Shown: positions 27,304 to 33,091 of the stretch, one piece after another
How positions within the stretch are numbered: position 1 is the stretch's first letter
Layout: every line of letters starts with the position of its first letter
Source: Nitrosospira sp.
GTDB lineage: Bacteria; Pseudomonadota; Gammaproteobacteria; Burkholderiales; Nitrosomonadaceae
Assembly (NCBI GenBank): GCA_013450215.1
Contig: JACDSH010000028.1
Coordinates: forward strand, 1-33,091
Length of the DNA stretch: 33,091 nt
Direction: 5' to 3'
The notes under the pieces: model-generated
Told to the model about the DNA's origin: nothing
Databases searched by the model: none
What the model saw: the letters and a program-made list of their open reading frames with translations, nothing else
Made by a program: the position numbers and the translations under genes

Positions 27304-27660
27304 TCAAATATGAAGTGCAACGCCTGACTTGAAGGCTACCTGATTAGGTGTCTGGTATCCAAGTCTCTTTCTGGGTCGGTTTTTCAATCTCTCCATCGCC
27401 ATATTGATCTCCTGTTGCATAATCGTTGTGAAGTCCCGGTTTTTTGGGAAGTGCTGCCGTATCAATCCATTCGTGTTCTCGTTCGTACCGCGCCCCCATG
27501 ACGAATAGGGGTGAGCAAAGTAGAAGTTAGCCTTCAATTTTTTGGCGATCTCTTCGCGCCCGGCGGATTTCTTGCCGTTGTCCGAAGTGATCGTGCGCAC
27601 CTTCTTTCGGTGTGGTTTAACCAGTCCGATCGCCTGATCACTGTTCGGCTTGAAAATTCG
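27304..27660 (-). pseudogene. IS30-family transposase, 5'-truncated
   Basis: About 118 codons of the C-terminal half of an IS30-family DDE transposase. Recognisable pieces are KPHRKKVRTITSDNGK (second catalytic Asp), YFAHPYSSWGRGTNENTNGL (third catalytic residue, Glu) and RPRKRLGYQTPNQV. The helix-turn-helix region and first Asp are missing. The match begins near 27655 and in-frame stops lie just beyond, only about 20 bp from the start of the DUF3422 gene on the other strand. The element is non-functional. Confidence 0.85.
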
Positions 27661-27715
27661 TCAATTTTAACCGGCAGCGATGCCCATCTGCTCCATACAG
27701 GATAAAATACTCTCG

Positions 27716-29038
27716 ATGAATCAGACCATCCATAACCTAACTCAGGCATTGCCCTCTGACGACTCGCAACGCGCATTGCTGCATAACGAGGTTCACACTC
27801 GTCCGGCGGCACGCATACGCTTGCCTGCACTTGTAGTCTCCATCGCCGTATTAAACGAAGGCATCAGCCGTGAAGAGGAATGTCAACACTTGAACCGCCT
27901 CCCGGGGAAGAGAAAATTAACACCTGCCGATCTGCAAGGAAACTTCCTTCGCCTGCGTTTTTCGAATCACGCATTGAAATGGGAGCGGCATAGCGAATTC
28001 ACCCGTTACTCTTTAGTGCAGGCACTCCCGCCACAGGCATCTCTAGATGCGACTGATCCTGAACTACTCTCCTCGTTATCACTGGAAGCCGAATGGCTAC
28101 GAGCCATTCCTGGCAGAACGATAGCAGCTATCAAGCTCGTCATGCTGGCTGAGAGCTTGGTTGATCCGGTGGCTATGCTAGATCGTGCACGCCGCTGGTT
28201 AGGTGACCATGCGGTGGTTGCATCATTAATGGGTCATGGTCATTCGATTGTCGTCACCGACTTCCGCTTGCGCGACAGTGGTTTCGAACGCATGTTGGTA
28301 TTGGCTCCAGCCGATACTAGCGAGACCCGTGCAGGACGAATCTCGGCACGGTTATTGGAGCTGGAAACATATCGGATGATGGCATTGCGTGGTCTGCCAG
28401 TTGCCAAAGAACTTGGACCGATGCTAGCCGAGTCCGAGGCCGTTTTATCAACCATCACCGCGCGCCTTGAGGGGAAACATGATAGCGATCAAGACCTACT
28501 GGACACGCTAGTGACGTTAGCGGCGCGTGTGGAACGTGCGACTGCTGAACATGTGTACCGCTTCTCTGCCACTCAGGCTTATAACTCACTTGTACTCAAC
28601 CGTATTACTGAGCTGCGTGAAAAACCAATTCCTGGTACGCAGACAGTGGGCGAATTCATGCAGCGCCGATTGTCACCGGCAATCGCTACAGTATCAGCTA
28701 CAGCGCAGCGGCTAGCATCCCTATCGCAACGCATCGAGCGGGCAGGCGGGCTATTACGCACGCGCGTGGACATCGTCACAGAGGTGCAGAACCAACAGTT
28801 GCTGTTTAAGCTGACACGGGGGCAGGAACTGCAGCTACGACTGCAAAGAACGGTGGAAGGACTCTCGATTGCAGCGATCACATACTATGTGATCAGCCTA
28901 GTCTTTTACGCGGGGAAGGCTGCCAATGCGGCTGGTTTACCGATCAATCCAGAAATCGCTGCGGGTGCGATGATCCCAGTGGTATTGGGCGGCGTAGTCT
29001 GGTTGACGCGGCGGATTCGCCGACACTTCCATGCATAA
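27716..29038 (+). CDS. DUF3422 family membrane protein
   Basis: A 440-residue protein matching the DUF3422 family of proteobacteria, function unknown. The N-terminal signature LLHNEVHTRPAARIRLPA is followed by a mixed cytosolic domain and a helical, probably coiled region (about residues 240-360, rich in TQRLASLSQRIERAGG-type heptads). Two C-terminal membrane helices follow (about 380-402 and 412-428), then a basic tail. The start is uncertain: ATG 27716 (MNQTIHNLTQ) or the in-frame ATG 27680. I prefer 27716, since the added residues of the longer form look unrelated and lie next to the IS30 truncation point. The original promoter may have been lost there. Confidence 0.8.
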   Translation: MNQTIHNLTQALPSDDSQRALLHNEVHTRPAARIRLPALVVSIAVLNEGISREEECQHLNRLPGKRKLTPADLQGNFLRLRFSNHALKWERHSEFTRYSLVQALPPQASLDATDPELLSSLSLEAEWLRAIPGRTIAAIKLVMLAESLVDPVAMLDRARRWLGDHAVVASLMGHGHSIVVTDFRLRDSGFERMLVLAPADTSETRAGRISARLLELETYRMMALRGLPVAKELGPMLAESEAVLSTITARLEGKHDSDQDLLDTLVTLAARVERATAEHVYRFSATQAYNSLVLNRITELREKPIPGTQTVGEFMQRRLSPAIATVSATAQRLASLSQRIERAGGLLRTRVDIVTEVQNQQLLFKLTRGQELQLRLQRTVEGLSIAAITYYVISLVFYAGKAANAAGLPINPEIAAGAMIPVVLGGVVWLTRRIRRHFHA

Positions 29039-29197
29039 TGGAATCCGCTTTATATTACCTAGGACAGGACCAACTCTGATATTCAATGAAGTTTATTCCG
29101 GCAATCTGCTGTCGACGCTTGGTTAGGCACCAGATGACGCGCTCCAACTTTGCTTCTGCACTCGTTTAAATATTACAGAATCGCGAGAATACAAATC

Positions 29198-29596
29198 TTA
29201 GATGACCGATCCCTCACGCTGGATAGCAACCCAAGCGGAAATTTTCTTGCCAACTTTGATAGGCAGCACACGCCAATACATGATGAAGGGTGTGCCATCT
29301 TTCTTATAGTTAATCGCCTTGCCTTCAAATTTTCCGCCCGAGTTCAATGCTGCTGAAAGCCTCGCTATGACCTTAGAATCTGTTCCCGTGCCTTGAAGAA
29401 TCCGAGGCGTCTTGCCGATTATTTCGGATGGGTCGTGGCCAGTTAGTTTTTTGAACGACTTGTTGGCGTAGATAATCTTGCCTTCCGCCGATGCATCCGT
29501 GATCAACACAGAGTCGAAACTGTTCTCTGCCAAAACCTGGAGTAGGGCCAACCCACCATCAGCTCCTTTCATCAGTTTCTCAAACGTCTCGGACAT
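29198..29596 (-). CDS. Stand-alone LOV-like PAS domain protein
   Basis: A 132-residue protein made of a single PAS domain (about residues 20-127), with no kinase, GGDEF or DNA-binding part. The sequence SVLITDASAEGKIIYANKSF, LTGHDPSEIIGKTPRILQG and FEGKAINYKKDGTPF follows the LOV subgroup. However, the photoactive cysteine of the LOV motif G(R/K)NCRFLQG is replaced by proline (P64 in GKTPRILQG), so flavin-cysteine photochemistry is not expected. It may sense redox state or a ligand, or act by protein binding. ATG 29596 has AGGGGAA 8 nt upstream, which decides the start over a longer frame to 29656. Confidence 0.75.
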   Translation of the reverse strand: MSETFEKLMKGADGGLALLQVLAENSFDSVLITDASAEGKIIYANKSFKKLTGHDPSEIIGKTPRILQGTGTDSKVIARLSAALNSGGKFEGKAINYKKDGTPFIMYWRVLPIKVGKKISAWVAIQREGSVI

Positions 29597-29711
29597 TCTA
29601 GGTTCCCCTTGGTTAGAAAGCGTCACCGGCAACAAAGCCGTTATCAGAAATGGCAATCGGCATTTTTACTCTGAGCACGGTACAGCCTTTTTACGCAAGA
29701 AACAACCCTCT

Positions 29712-29729
29712 GGATCAGTTGACTGATCC
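29712..29729. repeat. Short inverted repeat upstream of the PAS gene
   Basis: GGATCAG and CTGATCC around TTGA, about 115 bp upstream of the PAS gene start. There is no T tail. It is a possible operator, but unsupported beyond its symmetry. Confidence 0.3.
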
Positions 29730-29840
29730 CCATGTACCGCCTCCAATTGTCTGAACACGCTTTTGTGAATCCGGTCACCATTCGTTCAGTATAAACGAGG
29801 TGAGGTTTGGGGGTCGAAAGTGAATCTTCAAAGATATCTG

Positions 29841-31142
29841 CTATTTCTTTACCAAAACTAGATTAGGTTTCTTCTTCAATTGAGGAATTGATGTTTCCTG
29901 AATAGATGAATCCTCATCGCAATACTTCAGATTTAACTGTTCGATCTTCTCAAATACGGCATCCAAGCTTTTTCGCAGCTTCCTGCTTTTAGTGTGATTT
30001 GCCTCAGCAGCGATGCATCCCCCGAGTTCCTCCAGCTCAGAAAGCGTGAATCGGGCAGAAACAATTTCATCACGACATTTGGAGGAGTAAATTGCTTGCA
30101 TCAGCTCTTCAGGAATATATGTGAGCGACGTAATGAGGCCGCATTCTTCCTCTGTGAGCAGCAGCACCACTTTCTGACCGGGCTTGAGATATTTTCTAAT
30201 GGTTGCCATCAAAGTTTCCTGATTATGAATTTTTTCGGATTCTGGCATGACGTGCTTTGAGCCTTGATGAACGGAAGTTCGTGGTGCGGTAGGGTTTGGT
30301 ATCCGACACATGGTTTTGTCGTTCGCTCTGATCAAGCCTGGAACGCCCAGAATCCAGCCTTCTACCTGCGCCACTGCGCGCTCGGGTGGTGTCAGATCAG
30401 GATTCAGGCATGCGGCAAGACGGTCGTTCCGGTCGGCGCGGGAAAGCCACGAGGCAATGCTGAAGGCGTCATGTTGATCGGGTGTGCGATCTTCTATTGC
30501 GAAATTTCGACTCCAAAGCGCCGGATAGGCTTCGGCGATAGCCGAATGCGCAGCCGGAATGTCCCATCCGTCAAACGGCCAGAAGTGGACACGCTTGCCA
30601 AGTTGGTCACGAATGTAGCGAAGCCAAGGGATGCCAGCGTGGGAGGATTTCGCCACCGAACCATGTACATCGAAATGGAAAACCGACTTCGCACTTCCCG
30701 AACGCTCCTCGGTCAGGCGACGCCAGCGAGAGTTCCCCATCCGGGCCGCGCCGTTTCCCCGTATCCCGTCACGAACGAAATCGACGTAAATGTCCTCGTC
30801 GGTCGGCCAGTGCCGTTGAAAATCATCGAGAAACTCGTGCCAGTCAGGCGACAAATGGTGAACCTCGAAATAGCGCAGCGGAAACGAGAATCCGTGGTCG
30901 ATGCCGACAAGCGTGGCTTTATCCTCGCCCAGCCGCGCCACAAGCCATTCTGCAATCCCGCGCCGGGTCCAGTATTTGCGCGGCGATGCCGGCGGTAATA
31001 CTTCAATCGGCGAGTTATTGCCATCTGCCATATAGACACGCAGGCCTTTTAGGCTGGCCATCGGGGTCTCGGCACCGGAATAGTCTATTCCGATATATCG
31101 GGCGAAGGCGCTCATGTCAGGCCGCTGCCTTGAACCGTTCAT
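29841..31142 (-). CDS. DUF429-like protein (RNase H-like fold) fused to an unknown C-terminal module
   Basis: A 433-residue frame with two unlike parts. Residues 1 to about 285 resemble DUF429 proteins with an RNase H-like fold: GIDYSGAETP (D20), VGIDHGFSFP (D82), AIAEAYPALW (E204) and PDQHDAFSIASW (D225) give the expected set of acidic residues. Residues from about 299 (MPESEKIHNQ) form a separate charged, helical module ending in KKKPNLVLVKK. The C-terminal part is visibly more AT-rich than the GC-rich N-terminal part, pointing to different origins. An internal ATG at 30209 (MATIRKYLKPGQ) has AGGA 8 nt upstream and could give a separate 122-residue protein. The start could also be ATG 31115 (MSAFARYIG). 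Biochemical function unknown. Confidence 0.65.
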   Translation of the reverse strand: MNGSRQRPDMSAFARYIGIDYSGAETPMASLKGLRVYMADGNNSPIEVLPPASPRKYWTRRGIAEWLVARLGEDKATLVGIDHGFSFPLRYFEVHHLSPDWHEFLDDFQRHWPTDEDIYVDFVRDGIRGNGAARMGNSRWRRLTEERSGSAKSVFHFDVHGSVAKSSHAGIPWLRYIRDQLGKRVHFWPFDGWDIPAAHSAIAEAYPALWSRNFAIEDRTPDQHDAFSIASWLSRADRNDRLAACLNPDLTPPERAVAQVEGWILGVPGLIRANDKTMCRIPNPTAPRTSVHQGSKHVMPESEKIHNQETLMATIRKYLKPGQKVVLLLTEEECGLITSLTYIPEELMQAIYSSKCRDEIVSARFTLSELEELGGCIAAEANHTKSRKLRKSLDAVFEKIEQLNLKYCDEDSSIQETSIPQLKKKPNLVLVKK

Positions 31143-31163
31143 AACGCTGCGCTCATGCCTATA

Positions 31164-31244
31164 TCATTTCGATTTCTTAGCTGGAGGCGTTGATCTTCCC
31201 TCAACAAACCAATCAAACATGCGAGCAAAGAACTCCTTCGACAT
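31164..31244 (-). CDS. Possible 26-residue peptide or gene fragment
   Basis: A short frame, MSKEFFARMFDWFVEGRSTP and six more residues, sits between the 172-residue-class unknown gene and the DUF429-like gene. The frame is open a further 10 codons upstream to 31274, overlapping the previous gene's end in another frame. The ribosome site is weak (CTGAG). It may be a small gene, the end of a truncated one, or chance. Confidence 0.25.
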   Translation of the reverse strand: MSKEFFARMFDWFVEGRSTPPAKKSK

Positions 31245-31258
31245 CTCAGGGTCATAGC

Positions 31259-31768
31259 TCAGATAGTTCGGCTGTCATAAGCCCAATGCAAGAGCGCTTG
31301 CCGCTGGCGTGGTCGGCAAAACGGATCACCCTGTTCGCAATTCTTCCTGATCTGCGCCACGTGCCGTGTCATCGCCTTCCATCGTCCGATCTGGCGGGCG
31401 TCCTCCTGTGGAATGCGCCTACCCATCCAATAGCGGCAATACCACTGGAACCACCCGCGCGGGTCGTCCGGATTAATCCAGCCCTTCCGCCGCCATTCCG
31501 ACAGGGGTTGACTGGCGTCCACGCCGAAGTAGTTGAGAGCACAGTCGCGGCGAGAGGGCGACAGCTTCGCCCGCGCGAACCAGCTCGCCGGAAATTCGGC
31601 GCGGCAATCGGTAATATACTTTCCGCAGAAAATGCCGAGTTTGAGCATCTCCTTCGGCGTCAAGTCTGGCCGAAACTCGGGGCTGAAGTCGCGACCAGCC
31701 GGAGCTGCCAGCTCGTAGCGGTAGCCTTGCTGCATCTTGTCGTTGACGATGACTATACGGCGGCGCAT
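31259..31768 (-). CDS. Conserved-looking hypothetical protein
   Basis: A 169-residue basic, tryptophan-rich soluble protein (from ATG 31768, MRRRIVIVNDKMQQGYRYEL; a GTG 9 nt upstream is also possible). It contains PDLTPKEMLKLGIFCGKY, a WFQWYCRYWMGRR cluster and RQRQALLHWAYDSR, with six cysteines. There is no signal peptide or membrane helix. It is GC-rich like the N-terminal part of the neighbouring DUF429-like gene, so the two may have arrived together. I recall similar hypothetical proteins but cannot name a family or function. The long plus-strand frame over it looks like a shadow. Confidence 0.55.
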   Translation of the reverse strand: MRRRIVIVNDKMQQGYRYELAAPAGRDFSPEFRPDLTPKEMLKLGIFCGKYITDCRAEFPASWFARAKLSPSRRDCALNYFGVDASQPLSEWRRKGWINPDDPRGWFQWYCRYWMGRRIPQEDARQIGRWKAMTRHVAQIRKNCEQGDPFCRPRQRQALLHWAYDSRTI

Positions 31769-32010
31769 TTGGCTCACACTTTAACATCAAAAGGCCACTT
31801 AATTATTTCTGCCACCCGATATAACCTTCAACTGCCAACGGGACACCCCTTTTGGTCAAAATATCCATCGTGGCAAGCTCTTTATATTCTTGGGCAAGGG
31901 CTAAAAAATTATGGGAATGCGGTCTATGGCCCAGCTGGCTTAATACTCAGCAGAAAGAAAAACTGGTAGCATGAACCTCACCTCTTGGAAGATGGAAAAC
32001 CGGGGGAACC

Positions 32011-32157
32011 TCACAACAAGTAACGCCGGAAGCTTCGTTCACACATCCCTAATATCCGGGCTGCCTCAAATTGCGTAAGCCGACCTGCGTTCCAACCCTC
32101 ATACGTTTCTTCGAATCTCATCCTTCGGTTCTCCTGTAGCACTTCCGTTCGTCTCAT
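32011..32157 (-). pseudogene. N-terminal helix-turn-helix relic of a transposase (ISNCY-type)
   Basis: A 48-residue frame starting MRRTEVLQENRRMRFEETYE, with the helix-turn-helix stretch LTQFEAARILGMCERSFRRY. This is the N-terminus typical of ISNCY-group transposases, which usually run to several hundred residues. Here a TGA follows directly after RRYLL and nothing recognisable continues, so only the DNA-binding start survives. It is likely insertion-sequence debris. Confidence 0.65.
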
Positions 32158-32421
32158 TTGGCACCCCCTTCGGAGTGCTATGACGACCGGACAGATGTCG
32201 CGCTACAGAACCAGACAGGTCATAAACTCTCAACGACCAAAAAATTCGAACTTGACTTAGAAGAAAAACACTGTTATTTTTTATGTCTTAAGTGCCTATT
32301 CAAATTCATTTCCATCTTTGCAACAAGAACAACGTTTGATTAAGGCACTTTAACCAGAGGATGTTAAAACAATCAAGCCTCGGAAAATTTATTTTTAGCT
32401 AATTCTAAAATGGGAATTAAA
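32158..32421. other. AT-rich intergenic region before the small secreted protein
   Basis: About 260 bp without a convincing gene. A 61-codon frame starting at 32158 has no ribosome site and no protein-like pattern. This region presumably holds the promoter of the gene at 32422, but I found no clear -35/-10 pair. Confidence 0.4.
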
Positions 32422-32646
32422 ATGAACAAACTGTTTGCCGCTAGCATTGCTTCGATATTCGTATTCAGTTCGGCTGCCGCCCTGGCAGATCAGCATAGCA
32501 CAGGAGAAATTGGCTTAACCCATTCACACACCTCTGCTCGGACTAAACTGATCGAAATAGACTGCAAGAATAAAAACCCAGGTGAAGAAATCATGGACCC
32601 CACTGATGCCAGGAAAAAAGTAAAGTGCCATGAACCGACGAAGTGA
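32422..32646 (+). CDS. Small secreted two-cysteine protein, function unknown
   Basis: A 74-residue precursor with a textbook signal peptide: MNKLF, a hydrophobic core and cleavage after ALA near residue 22. The mature part is about 52 residues, hydrophilic, with two cysteines (IDCKNKN and VKCHEP) about 22 residues apart that could form one disulfide. The start at ATG 32422 has GGGA 8 nt upstream; the in-frame ATG at 32410 has none. I recognise no family. The signal peptide argues for a real periplasmic or secreted product. Confidence 0.6.
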   Translation: MNKLFAASIASIFVFSSAAALADQHSTGEIGLTHSHTSARTKLIEIDCKNKNPGEEIMDPTDARKKVKCHEPTK

Positions 32647-32892
32647 GGCGTAATCTGCACTACACTCCCTAGTGCGATACGGGCTAGTGTTTAGTTGCTC
32701 CGGCAATTTAAGCAGTATTAGCGATTCTATCGTTCTCGCTGACCGCATATTGACCCAGGCTGTCGATTAAAGTGGGCCCATGAGTCAAGACAGAAATGCC
32801 CTTAGTTTATAGCTCCTTGCAAAACTAATTTTAAAATAGAGCGTAATGGCATTCGATACTCGAATTTCGGCATCTAAGTGGTTACTTCTGCC

Positions 32893-33090
32893 TTACTTGC
32901 AGCAATCTTTTTGATTTACCGCATTTCCCCGCCCTTGAGGGCGAGTGCCATCACCGGCTAGTTCGGTTTGGGAATTTTTACTTCCCTCTTTCGGACTTAC
33001 GTCATCTAGCTGAGAAGCTGATCTGCTGTCAACGCTAGCACCACAAACATCAGGTGCAATATTACCTTTGCATTTCCCCTGTCCTGCTAT
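32893..33090 (-). CDS. C-terminal 65 codons of an unidentified open frame entering from the right edge
   Basis: A reverse frame with no stop from the right edge to TAA at 32893-32895. The peptide is very polar, rich in Ser, Asp, Gly and Asn, with two Cys near its start (GKCKGNIAPDVCGA) and a Cys pair at the end (QKDCCK). This resembles a secreted or disordered tail more than a folded enzyme. No family is recognised, and a chance open frame of this length is possible. The region 32647-32892 to its left shows no gene. Confidence 0.35.
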   Translation of the reverse strand: MAGQGKCKGNIAPDVCGASVDSRSASQLDDVSPKEGSKNSQTELAGDGTRPQGRGNAVNQKDCCK

Positions 33091-33091
33091 G

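Follow-up and report, generated by a model that had tools for sequence, protein, structure and literature searches.

A probably accidental, lineage-specific reading-frame fusion of a predicted nuclease-fold gene to an unrelated small gene in Nitrosospira sp.

Background

An open reading frame (ORF) of Nitrosospira sp. raises the question of whether it encodes one protein or two genes that have come to share a frame. The ORF occupies 31142-29841 on the minus strand, specifies 433 amino acids and is open throughout. The window analysed here is a stretch of 33,091 nucleotides, which is the entire contig C17 of a 1.6 Mb draft assembly in 59 contigs. A sequence-only reading of the window had proposed either a fusion of a DUF429-like nuclease-fold protein with an AT-rich C-terminal module able to start on its own, or a native two-domain protein, and had raised a possible link to mobile or defence-type genes.

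Here we describe the two parts of the ORF, the DNA that joins them and their relatives in other genomes. We put at about 0.65 the probability that a fragment of a foreign defence operon recombined ahead of an unrelated small gene and that the frame runs through by chance. The fusion is probably accidental and lineage-specific. Judged by its gene neighbours elsewhere, the family of the N-terminal part would be an unrecognised defence accessory, and this is a more interesting result than the fusion itself.

Two parts in one frame

The 433-aa ORF is confirmed to consist of two unrelated parts in one frame. Each half has relatives that stand alone, and the search for another fused case found none, in agreement with the proposed fusion of two genes. 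The GC and GC3 contents are 0.58 and 0.62 for residues 10-277, 0.45 and 0.38 for the linker, and 0.43 and 0.47 for the C-terminal part, which is indeed the AT-richer one as the sequence-only reading had it. The full protein matched no family at E<=1 in Pfam, NCBIfam or PADLOC.

The nuclease-fold part

Homologues and an AF2 model delimit the body of a gene with a predicted RuvC/RNase H-like fold at residues 10-277 (30312-31115, minus strand), called the N-part below. Its family, the N-family, has 426 confirmed relatives in the genome collection, of which the best 80 were used together with further loci from viral contigs. Most of these proteins are free-standing. The N-part is 93% identical to L045 and 89% to L044, and 59-80% identical to the remaining loci kept. 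Relatives with a visible end (genome and viral loci L040-L127) reach their stop 2-35 residues past the EGWILG motif, with the exception of L085, L114, L119 and L108. They thus end near the junction that had been proposed. This places the family boundary in the window protein at about residue 267-281; the division into two parts stands, while the boundary at residue 285 given earlier has to be moved.

Three of the exceptions, L085 (on the same contig as L041/L125), L114 and L119, carry a Zn-ribbon-like C-terminal extension, and zinc-ribbon Pfam matches to N-family members are weak. The fourth, L108 (7992-9488), has a C-terminal tail of 238 residues that looks like a PD-(D/E)XK-type domain. The N-family gene of L108 follows a gene that clusters with one matching UzuA, with no PADLOC match itself. 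A truncated N-family frame was also seen behind a 480-aa ORF resembling a UvrD-type helicase (L006:27-1749).

Alignment A7, with 40 sequences, shows no variation at the acidic residues D20, D82, E204 and D225 or at E145 and E261. The AF2 model of the N-part has a pLDDT of 92.1 and a pTM of 0.90. Foldseek with this model returned MOC1 resolvase, Argonaute and RNase HI, with a best E of 0.043 that is not significant. The top row of VIA-align was RuvC (4ld0) at a Z of 6.4, which is under 8, over 129 residues with an rmsd of 3.7. It was followed by Cas12a, IS110-type recombinases, SPT6, Cas9, a terminase nuclease and IscB, and most of the 50 rows are RNase H-like by title. The model therefore favours a RuvC/RNase H-like fold for the N-part. 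The PDB contained no solved structure related to it by sequence.

The nuclease fold with its acidic residues had been called DUF429-like in the sequence-only reading. The GIDYSGA-type first strand of the N-family presumably resembles DUF429, and the fold is favoured by the model, but DUF429 membership was rejected. The DUF429 model PF04250 matched none of 39 N-family members at E<=1 in a search that did find 14 families. Across 13 genomes, of which 12 had been picked as holders of relatives, it never exceeded its cut-off, in a search in which controls matched in 4 of 14; its one sub-threshold match (E 0.0975) lies on another contig. Since PF04250 is unmatched, the N-family is unnamed in the libraries used.

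Upstream breakpoint and start codon

The locus L045 shows what precedes the nuclease-fold gene elsewhere. There the gene of the homologue starts with an ATG one nucleotide past the stop of an HNH-endonuclease gene (HNH_2, E 1.4e-9; PADLOC HNH, 5.3e-24). By DNA match to L045, the window retains the last 11 codons and the stop of this HNH gene at 31117-31152 on the minus strand, and the similarity to L045 stops at 31152. The homologue in L044 begins at the methionine equivalent to ATG 31115. Because the DNA before ATG 31115 is the 3' end of the HNH gene in L045 and because L044 starts there, the real start of the nuclease-fold gene is probably ATG 31115 and not ATG 31142, the start assumed before. 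The first nine residues read from ATG 31142 would then be the tail of the HNH gene in another frame. The reduction of the HNH gene to 11 codons suggests that the N-part is a displaced piece of a defence operon.

The C-terminal module

The C-module comprises residues 312-433 (122 aa; 29841-30209, minus strand), has its own ATG at 30209, and is defined by free-standing homologues. A candidate ribosome-binding site, AGGA, lies at 30217-30220 on the same strand. It is present as the sequence-only reading described, with a spacer of 7 nt to the ATG rather than 8. An AGGA-like motif precedes 21 of the 294 in-frame internal ATGs in the 25 larger ORFs of the window, so the AGGA is only supporting evidence for a start at 30209. 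The stronger evidence is the free-standing homologues L035 (104 aa, phmmer E 5.5e-19) and L036 (97 aa, 6.9e-14), whose N-termini coincide with ATG 30209. These two proteins supply the free-standing homologues of residues 312-433 that had been sought and agree with the idea that the second gene is able to start alone.

The C-module family is thin, with a handful of divergent members. Identity is 32-43% to L036 and L035 and 23-30% to L032/L033, which belong with L037 and L039 to the weaker relatives. In L032 and L033, 193-aa proteins encoded on Mycobacterium plasmids, the C-module-like part makes up the C-terminal half; L003 and L039 are apparently broken copies. An EANH-type stretch occurs in most members. 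No C-module relatives were found in phages, in viral contigs (with the single sequence or A5), or in plasmids and phages queried with L035.

No Pfam or NCBIfam model exceeded its cut-off for the C-part, and the weak names returned, Allexi_40kDa, Methyltransf_23 and tet_destruct (Pfam/NCBIfam) and TAF4 (E 0.027), were judged to be chance. A model from five sequences has a pLDDT of 78. Fold searches with it pointed to no clear family: the best Foldseek E was 0.35, and the best VIA match was a BIRC6 fragment at a Z of 8.4 (rmsd 3.0, 90 residues).

The linker and the downstream breakpoint

The 34 codons between the two parts (30210-30311, minus strand) show no similarity to N-family relatives. DNA similarity to L044 (91.6%) spans 31125 to 30298 of the window and is then lost altogether. 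Within the linker lies the remnant of a dispersed repeat (30232-30299, minus strand; core 30262-30286), recognised by a match of 68 bp at 79% in G403:C75; the congener G403 has two copies. The 25-bp core occurs with up to three mismatches in three of nine genus genomes, the source genome counted, and it occurs exactly in G994 and G894 among 250 genomes of the order. Longer copies of about 245-464 bp, 85-88% alike, are found in L044 (3456-3932), L160, L161 and L162. The copy in L044 begins about 0.56 kb upstream of the N-family homologue. No integron attC site was seen by eye in the linker repeat.

The linker is probably former intergenic DNA that is now translated, because a dispersed-repeat remnant lies inside it and the similarity to L044 is lost. 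A stretch of 102 nt with the dinucleotide make-up of the linker stays open in a given frame with a chance of 0.37, so the open linker needs no special cause.

Genomic setting

The fused protein was present in its own genome only, among 61 genomes of relatives searched. A DUF3422 gene at 27680-29038 is kept in six congeners at 83-93% DNA identity, and window DNA past this gene was found in none of the five for which more than about 100 nt beyond it was fetched. The sixth, G400, has only about 100 nt left beyond DUF3422 and stands outside this comparison. When 29060-33091 was searched against the genus, only the 68-bp linker piece matched between 29102 and 31934. The stretch with the fused ORF is accessory DNA, as the protein is absent from the searched relatives and the window DNA beyond DUF3422 is missing in congeners.

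Upstream on the same strand is a 172-aa ORF (31259-31777, minus strand) with relatives in 50 plasmid records, mainly from Sinorhizobium and Rhizobium; the identity is 60-80% in 48 of these records. The contig end (31935-33091) is rich in dispersed repeats. The pieces 31935-32018, 32014-32234 and 32808-32960 have several copies in one or more congeners, and 33037-33091 recurs at other places of its own genome, in one instance where a contig begins. On the other side of DUF3422, a 98-aa ORF at 27304-27600 (minus strand) is integrase-core-like (rve_3, E 0.013, below the cut-off) and is a possible transposase remnant.

How the fusion arose

The account that we prefer starts with a fragment made up of the RuvC/RNase H-fold gene and, from the HNH-endonuclease gene that precedes it, the final 11 codons. 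This fragment would have recombined into an accessory region of the genome, ahead of a small gene unrelated to it. The frame of the nuclease-fold gene, which lacks a stop of its own, happens to remain open across about 100 nt of intergenic DNA with a repeat remnant and so continues in frame into the small gene. Most likely, ATG 31115 would give a 424-aa fusion product, and ATG 30209 the 122-aa C-module as a protein by itself. The anatomy in two parts, the separate relatives, the points where DNA similarity ends, the repeat and the neighbourhoods are observed; the order of events, the activity and the coupling in this account are those that we infer. In the window the N-part is an orphan that may be active or heading for decay.

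A decaying remnant, in which both halves are debris and the N-part has gone out of use without its operon and its stop, is a less probable reading that nevertheless retains some weight. Partner genes have been lost, breakpoints are present at both ends, and the contig end is repeat-rich. The dN/dS of the N-part against L044 is 0.26 (268 codons), as compared with 0.09 for the L044-L045 pair. However, the frame has no internal stop, the invariant acids are retained, and against L045, at 93% identity, the dN/dS is 0.11 (233 codons). By these comparisons the N-part is under purifying selection, and the values of 0.11 and 0.26 indicate that the protein stayed functional until recently.

It is improbable that the ORF encodes a functional two-domain protein, in which the nuclease-fold protein acquired the C-module as a domain for targeting or regulation. 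Such a protein would account for an ORF that is open and in frame and for an N-part under selection, and C-terminal additions are known for the N-family in L114, L119, L085 and L108. However, the C-module was found in none of the best 80 of the 426 genome loci of the N-family, and the fetched viral contigs held no second fused case either. A two-part architecture shared by many relatives was accordingly rejected; such an architecture, with even composition, would have spoken against a fusion, and the GC content is uneven. The C-module was beside an N-family homologue in none of 156 loci searched. In addition, the dispersed repeat overlaps the linker, and the C-module retains its own start, aligned with those of its free-standing relatives. 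The native two-domain protein that had been left open is thus disfavoured by the relatives examined. The tblastn extensions past residue 285 in L069 and L093 were discarded as alignments that run through stops.

The contig of L044 ends 95 nt after the gene and that of L045 ends inside it, so that the downstream neighbours are out of sight and a C-module gene may already be adjacent in these two; the contigs of L044, L045, L065, L072, L085 and L115 all stop within about 250 nt of the N-family gene, and rarer fused cases may exist beyond what the 80 loci show. The unseen downstream genes of the two closest relatives slightly lower our confidence in a chance read-through after recombination.

An assembly or consensus artefact, in which a base error erased the stop of the nuclease-fold gene, is very unlikely even for a draft of 59 contigs with the window as one whole contig, as the GC shift, the C-module and the linker fit real neighbouring genes and the similarity to L044 vanishes wholly past 30298 and not at one base.

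Neighbours of the N-family

Grouping the 80 loci at 92% identity left 68 groups, each with one representative. The group closest to the window is represented by L044, which is without Hsd genes and whose neighbours look like tricarboxylate transporter genes rather than defence genes; its other member, L045, has an HsdS-like gene and the HNH gene. Neighbours are mechanical ORFs and not the output of a gene caller, and the Hsd labels are names put on BLAST clusters. The neighbour set (A12) holds 78 of the 176 listed neighbours, described by the 25 commonest families among the matches listed.

HsdS, HsdM or HsdR clusters were present within the fetched flanks in 18 of the 68 groups. Where at least 4 kb upstream was available, Hsd clusters occurred in 15 of 46 groups and the HsdM cluster in 11 of 46. 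All ten HsdM-cluster proteins checked by Pfam matched N6_Mtase at E<=1e-5, and eight matched HsdM_N. As a baseline, HsdM_N is found in 83 of 150 genomes of the phylum (168 copies by summing), which is well under 0.01 per 17-kb stretch if a genome of 3-4 Mb is assumed, with the reservation that the N-family loci come from more phyla.

The genes that directly precede the N-family were also compared with PADLOC, using 29 hand-picked from the upstream ORFs with Hsd clusters left out. Thirteen matched at E<=1e-4 (two weakly, at about 1e-7) and 16 had no match. In one batch six of nine matched (type IV REase, PDC-S18, AbiEii, UzuA, mad2 and a weak PDC-M01B), in a second four of ten (DRT UG5-nitrilase, HEC-05, UvrD/GajB-like and a weak PDC-M28B), and in a third three of ten (Hhe/PDC-S37, AbiD, and a contig-cut gene end matching DISARM/type IIG models). 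Among ten following genes, mostly from loci with defence matches, one had a PADLOC match, which is borderline (E 9.4e-5). The gap to the preceding gene is within 20 nt in 16 of 55 loci, and in 24 of 55 it falls between -120 and 60; the table covers 68 loci (L045 for the closest group), 62 with a recognisable start and 55 with a preceding gene.

The N-family is therefore recurrently adjacent to known defence genes in other genomes, whereas in the window only the HNH remnant points that way. The defence link suggested earlier is carried by these neighbours elsewhere and not by the window itself. Part of the enrichment could reflect the general character of defence islands as accessory regions.

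An alternative reading of these neighbourhoods is that the N-family is a mobile, recombinase-like gene of RuvC fold, inserting behind operons at their 3' ends, and not a defence effector. The upstream partners are many and unrelated, 10 of the 68 groups contain a serine-recombinase cluster, and the IS110-type recombinases 9t56 and 8wt6 are among the best structural rows. The tight gene spacing is more typical of coupled operon genes, and we regard this origin as quite unlikely.

If the N-family is instead an accessory of defence operons, as we prefer, the N-part in its home setting would be a metal-dependent RuvC-like nuclease whose gene closes anti-phage operons of very different kinds, often with little space between it and the gene before. 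A nuclease role is suggested by the fold, the invariant acids and the context. Its role there would be to help process or destroy DNA attacked by the main system, and the diversity of its partners suggests a generic DNA-processing step. Tentatively, and at odds somewhat short of even, we propose that the N-family is an unrecognised RuvC-fold family, not covered by the tested Pfam and PADLOC models, that rides last in unrelated anti-phage systems (type I/IV restriction, AbiE, Uzume, DRT, Hhe and HEC-05). Such a family could serve bacterial immunity as an all-purpose auxiliary nuclease, with a C-terminus that is a recurrent site for added modules such as the Zn-ribbon-like extension, the L108 tail and the small protein here. 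If the N-family is such a shared auxiliary factor, this would suggest that unrelated defence systems draw on one downstream step, the processing of DNA once it has been recognised, which can be added to many of them. The fusion is a clear example of a displaced defence gene joined to a stranger via intergenic DNA.

Comparison with known systems

In the excerpted text of Majorek et al. 2014 (PMC3985635), DUF429 is assigned to clade D of the RNase H-like superfamily, is mostly single-domain, and has fusions to NUDIX or RelA/SpoT. Its context is described there as conserved in related taxa, and it is judged 'unlikely to be mobile' (PMC3985635). Like DUF429 (PF04250; COG2410/COG4328/COG4923), the N-family consists for the most part of single-domain proteins predicted to be RNase H-like nucleases, with strands 1 and 4 carrying conserved residues. 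The N-family differs in failing PF04250 and in sitting beside varied defence genes, in contrast to the DUF429 context conserved in related taxa (PMC3985635, same excerpts).

RuvC-like nucleases, namely T. thermophilus RuvC (4ld0), MOC1 and the RuvC domains of Cas12a, Cas9 and IscB, gave the best fold rows (Z 4.9-6.4 over 111-154 residues). The N-part, known here from its model, differs from them in its length of about 260 residues, in a long helical stretch between strands, and in a sequence identity of 5-19%.

Open-licence PMC papers, the scope of the search (subscription papers lay outside it), yielded no description of the N-family as a defence accessory or in defence operons. Like the accessory genes that associate promiscuously with type I restriction-modification and other defence loci, the N-family occurs with HsdR/M/S and with matches to type IV REase, AbiEii, Uzume, DRT, Hhe, HEC-05 and AbiD. 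The window protein differs from such accessory genes in having no PADLOC model match at E<=1 and in being a copy without an operon. The small-protein family of the C-module (L035, L036, L032 and L033) is the closest counterpart of the second part: the module in the window has the same start as L035 and L036, but here it is fused behind an unrelated gene.
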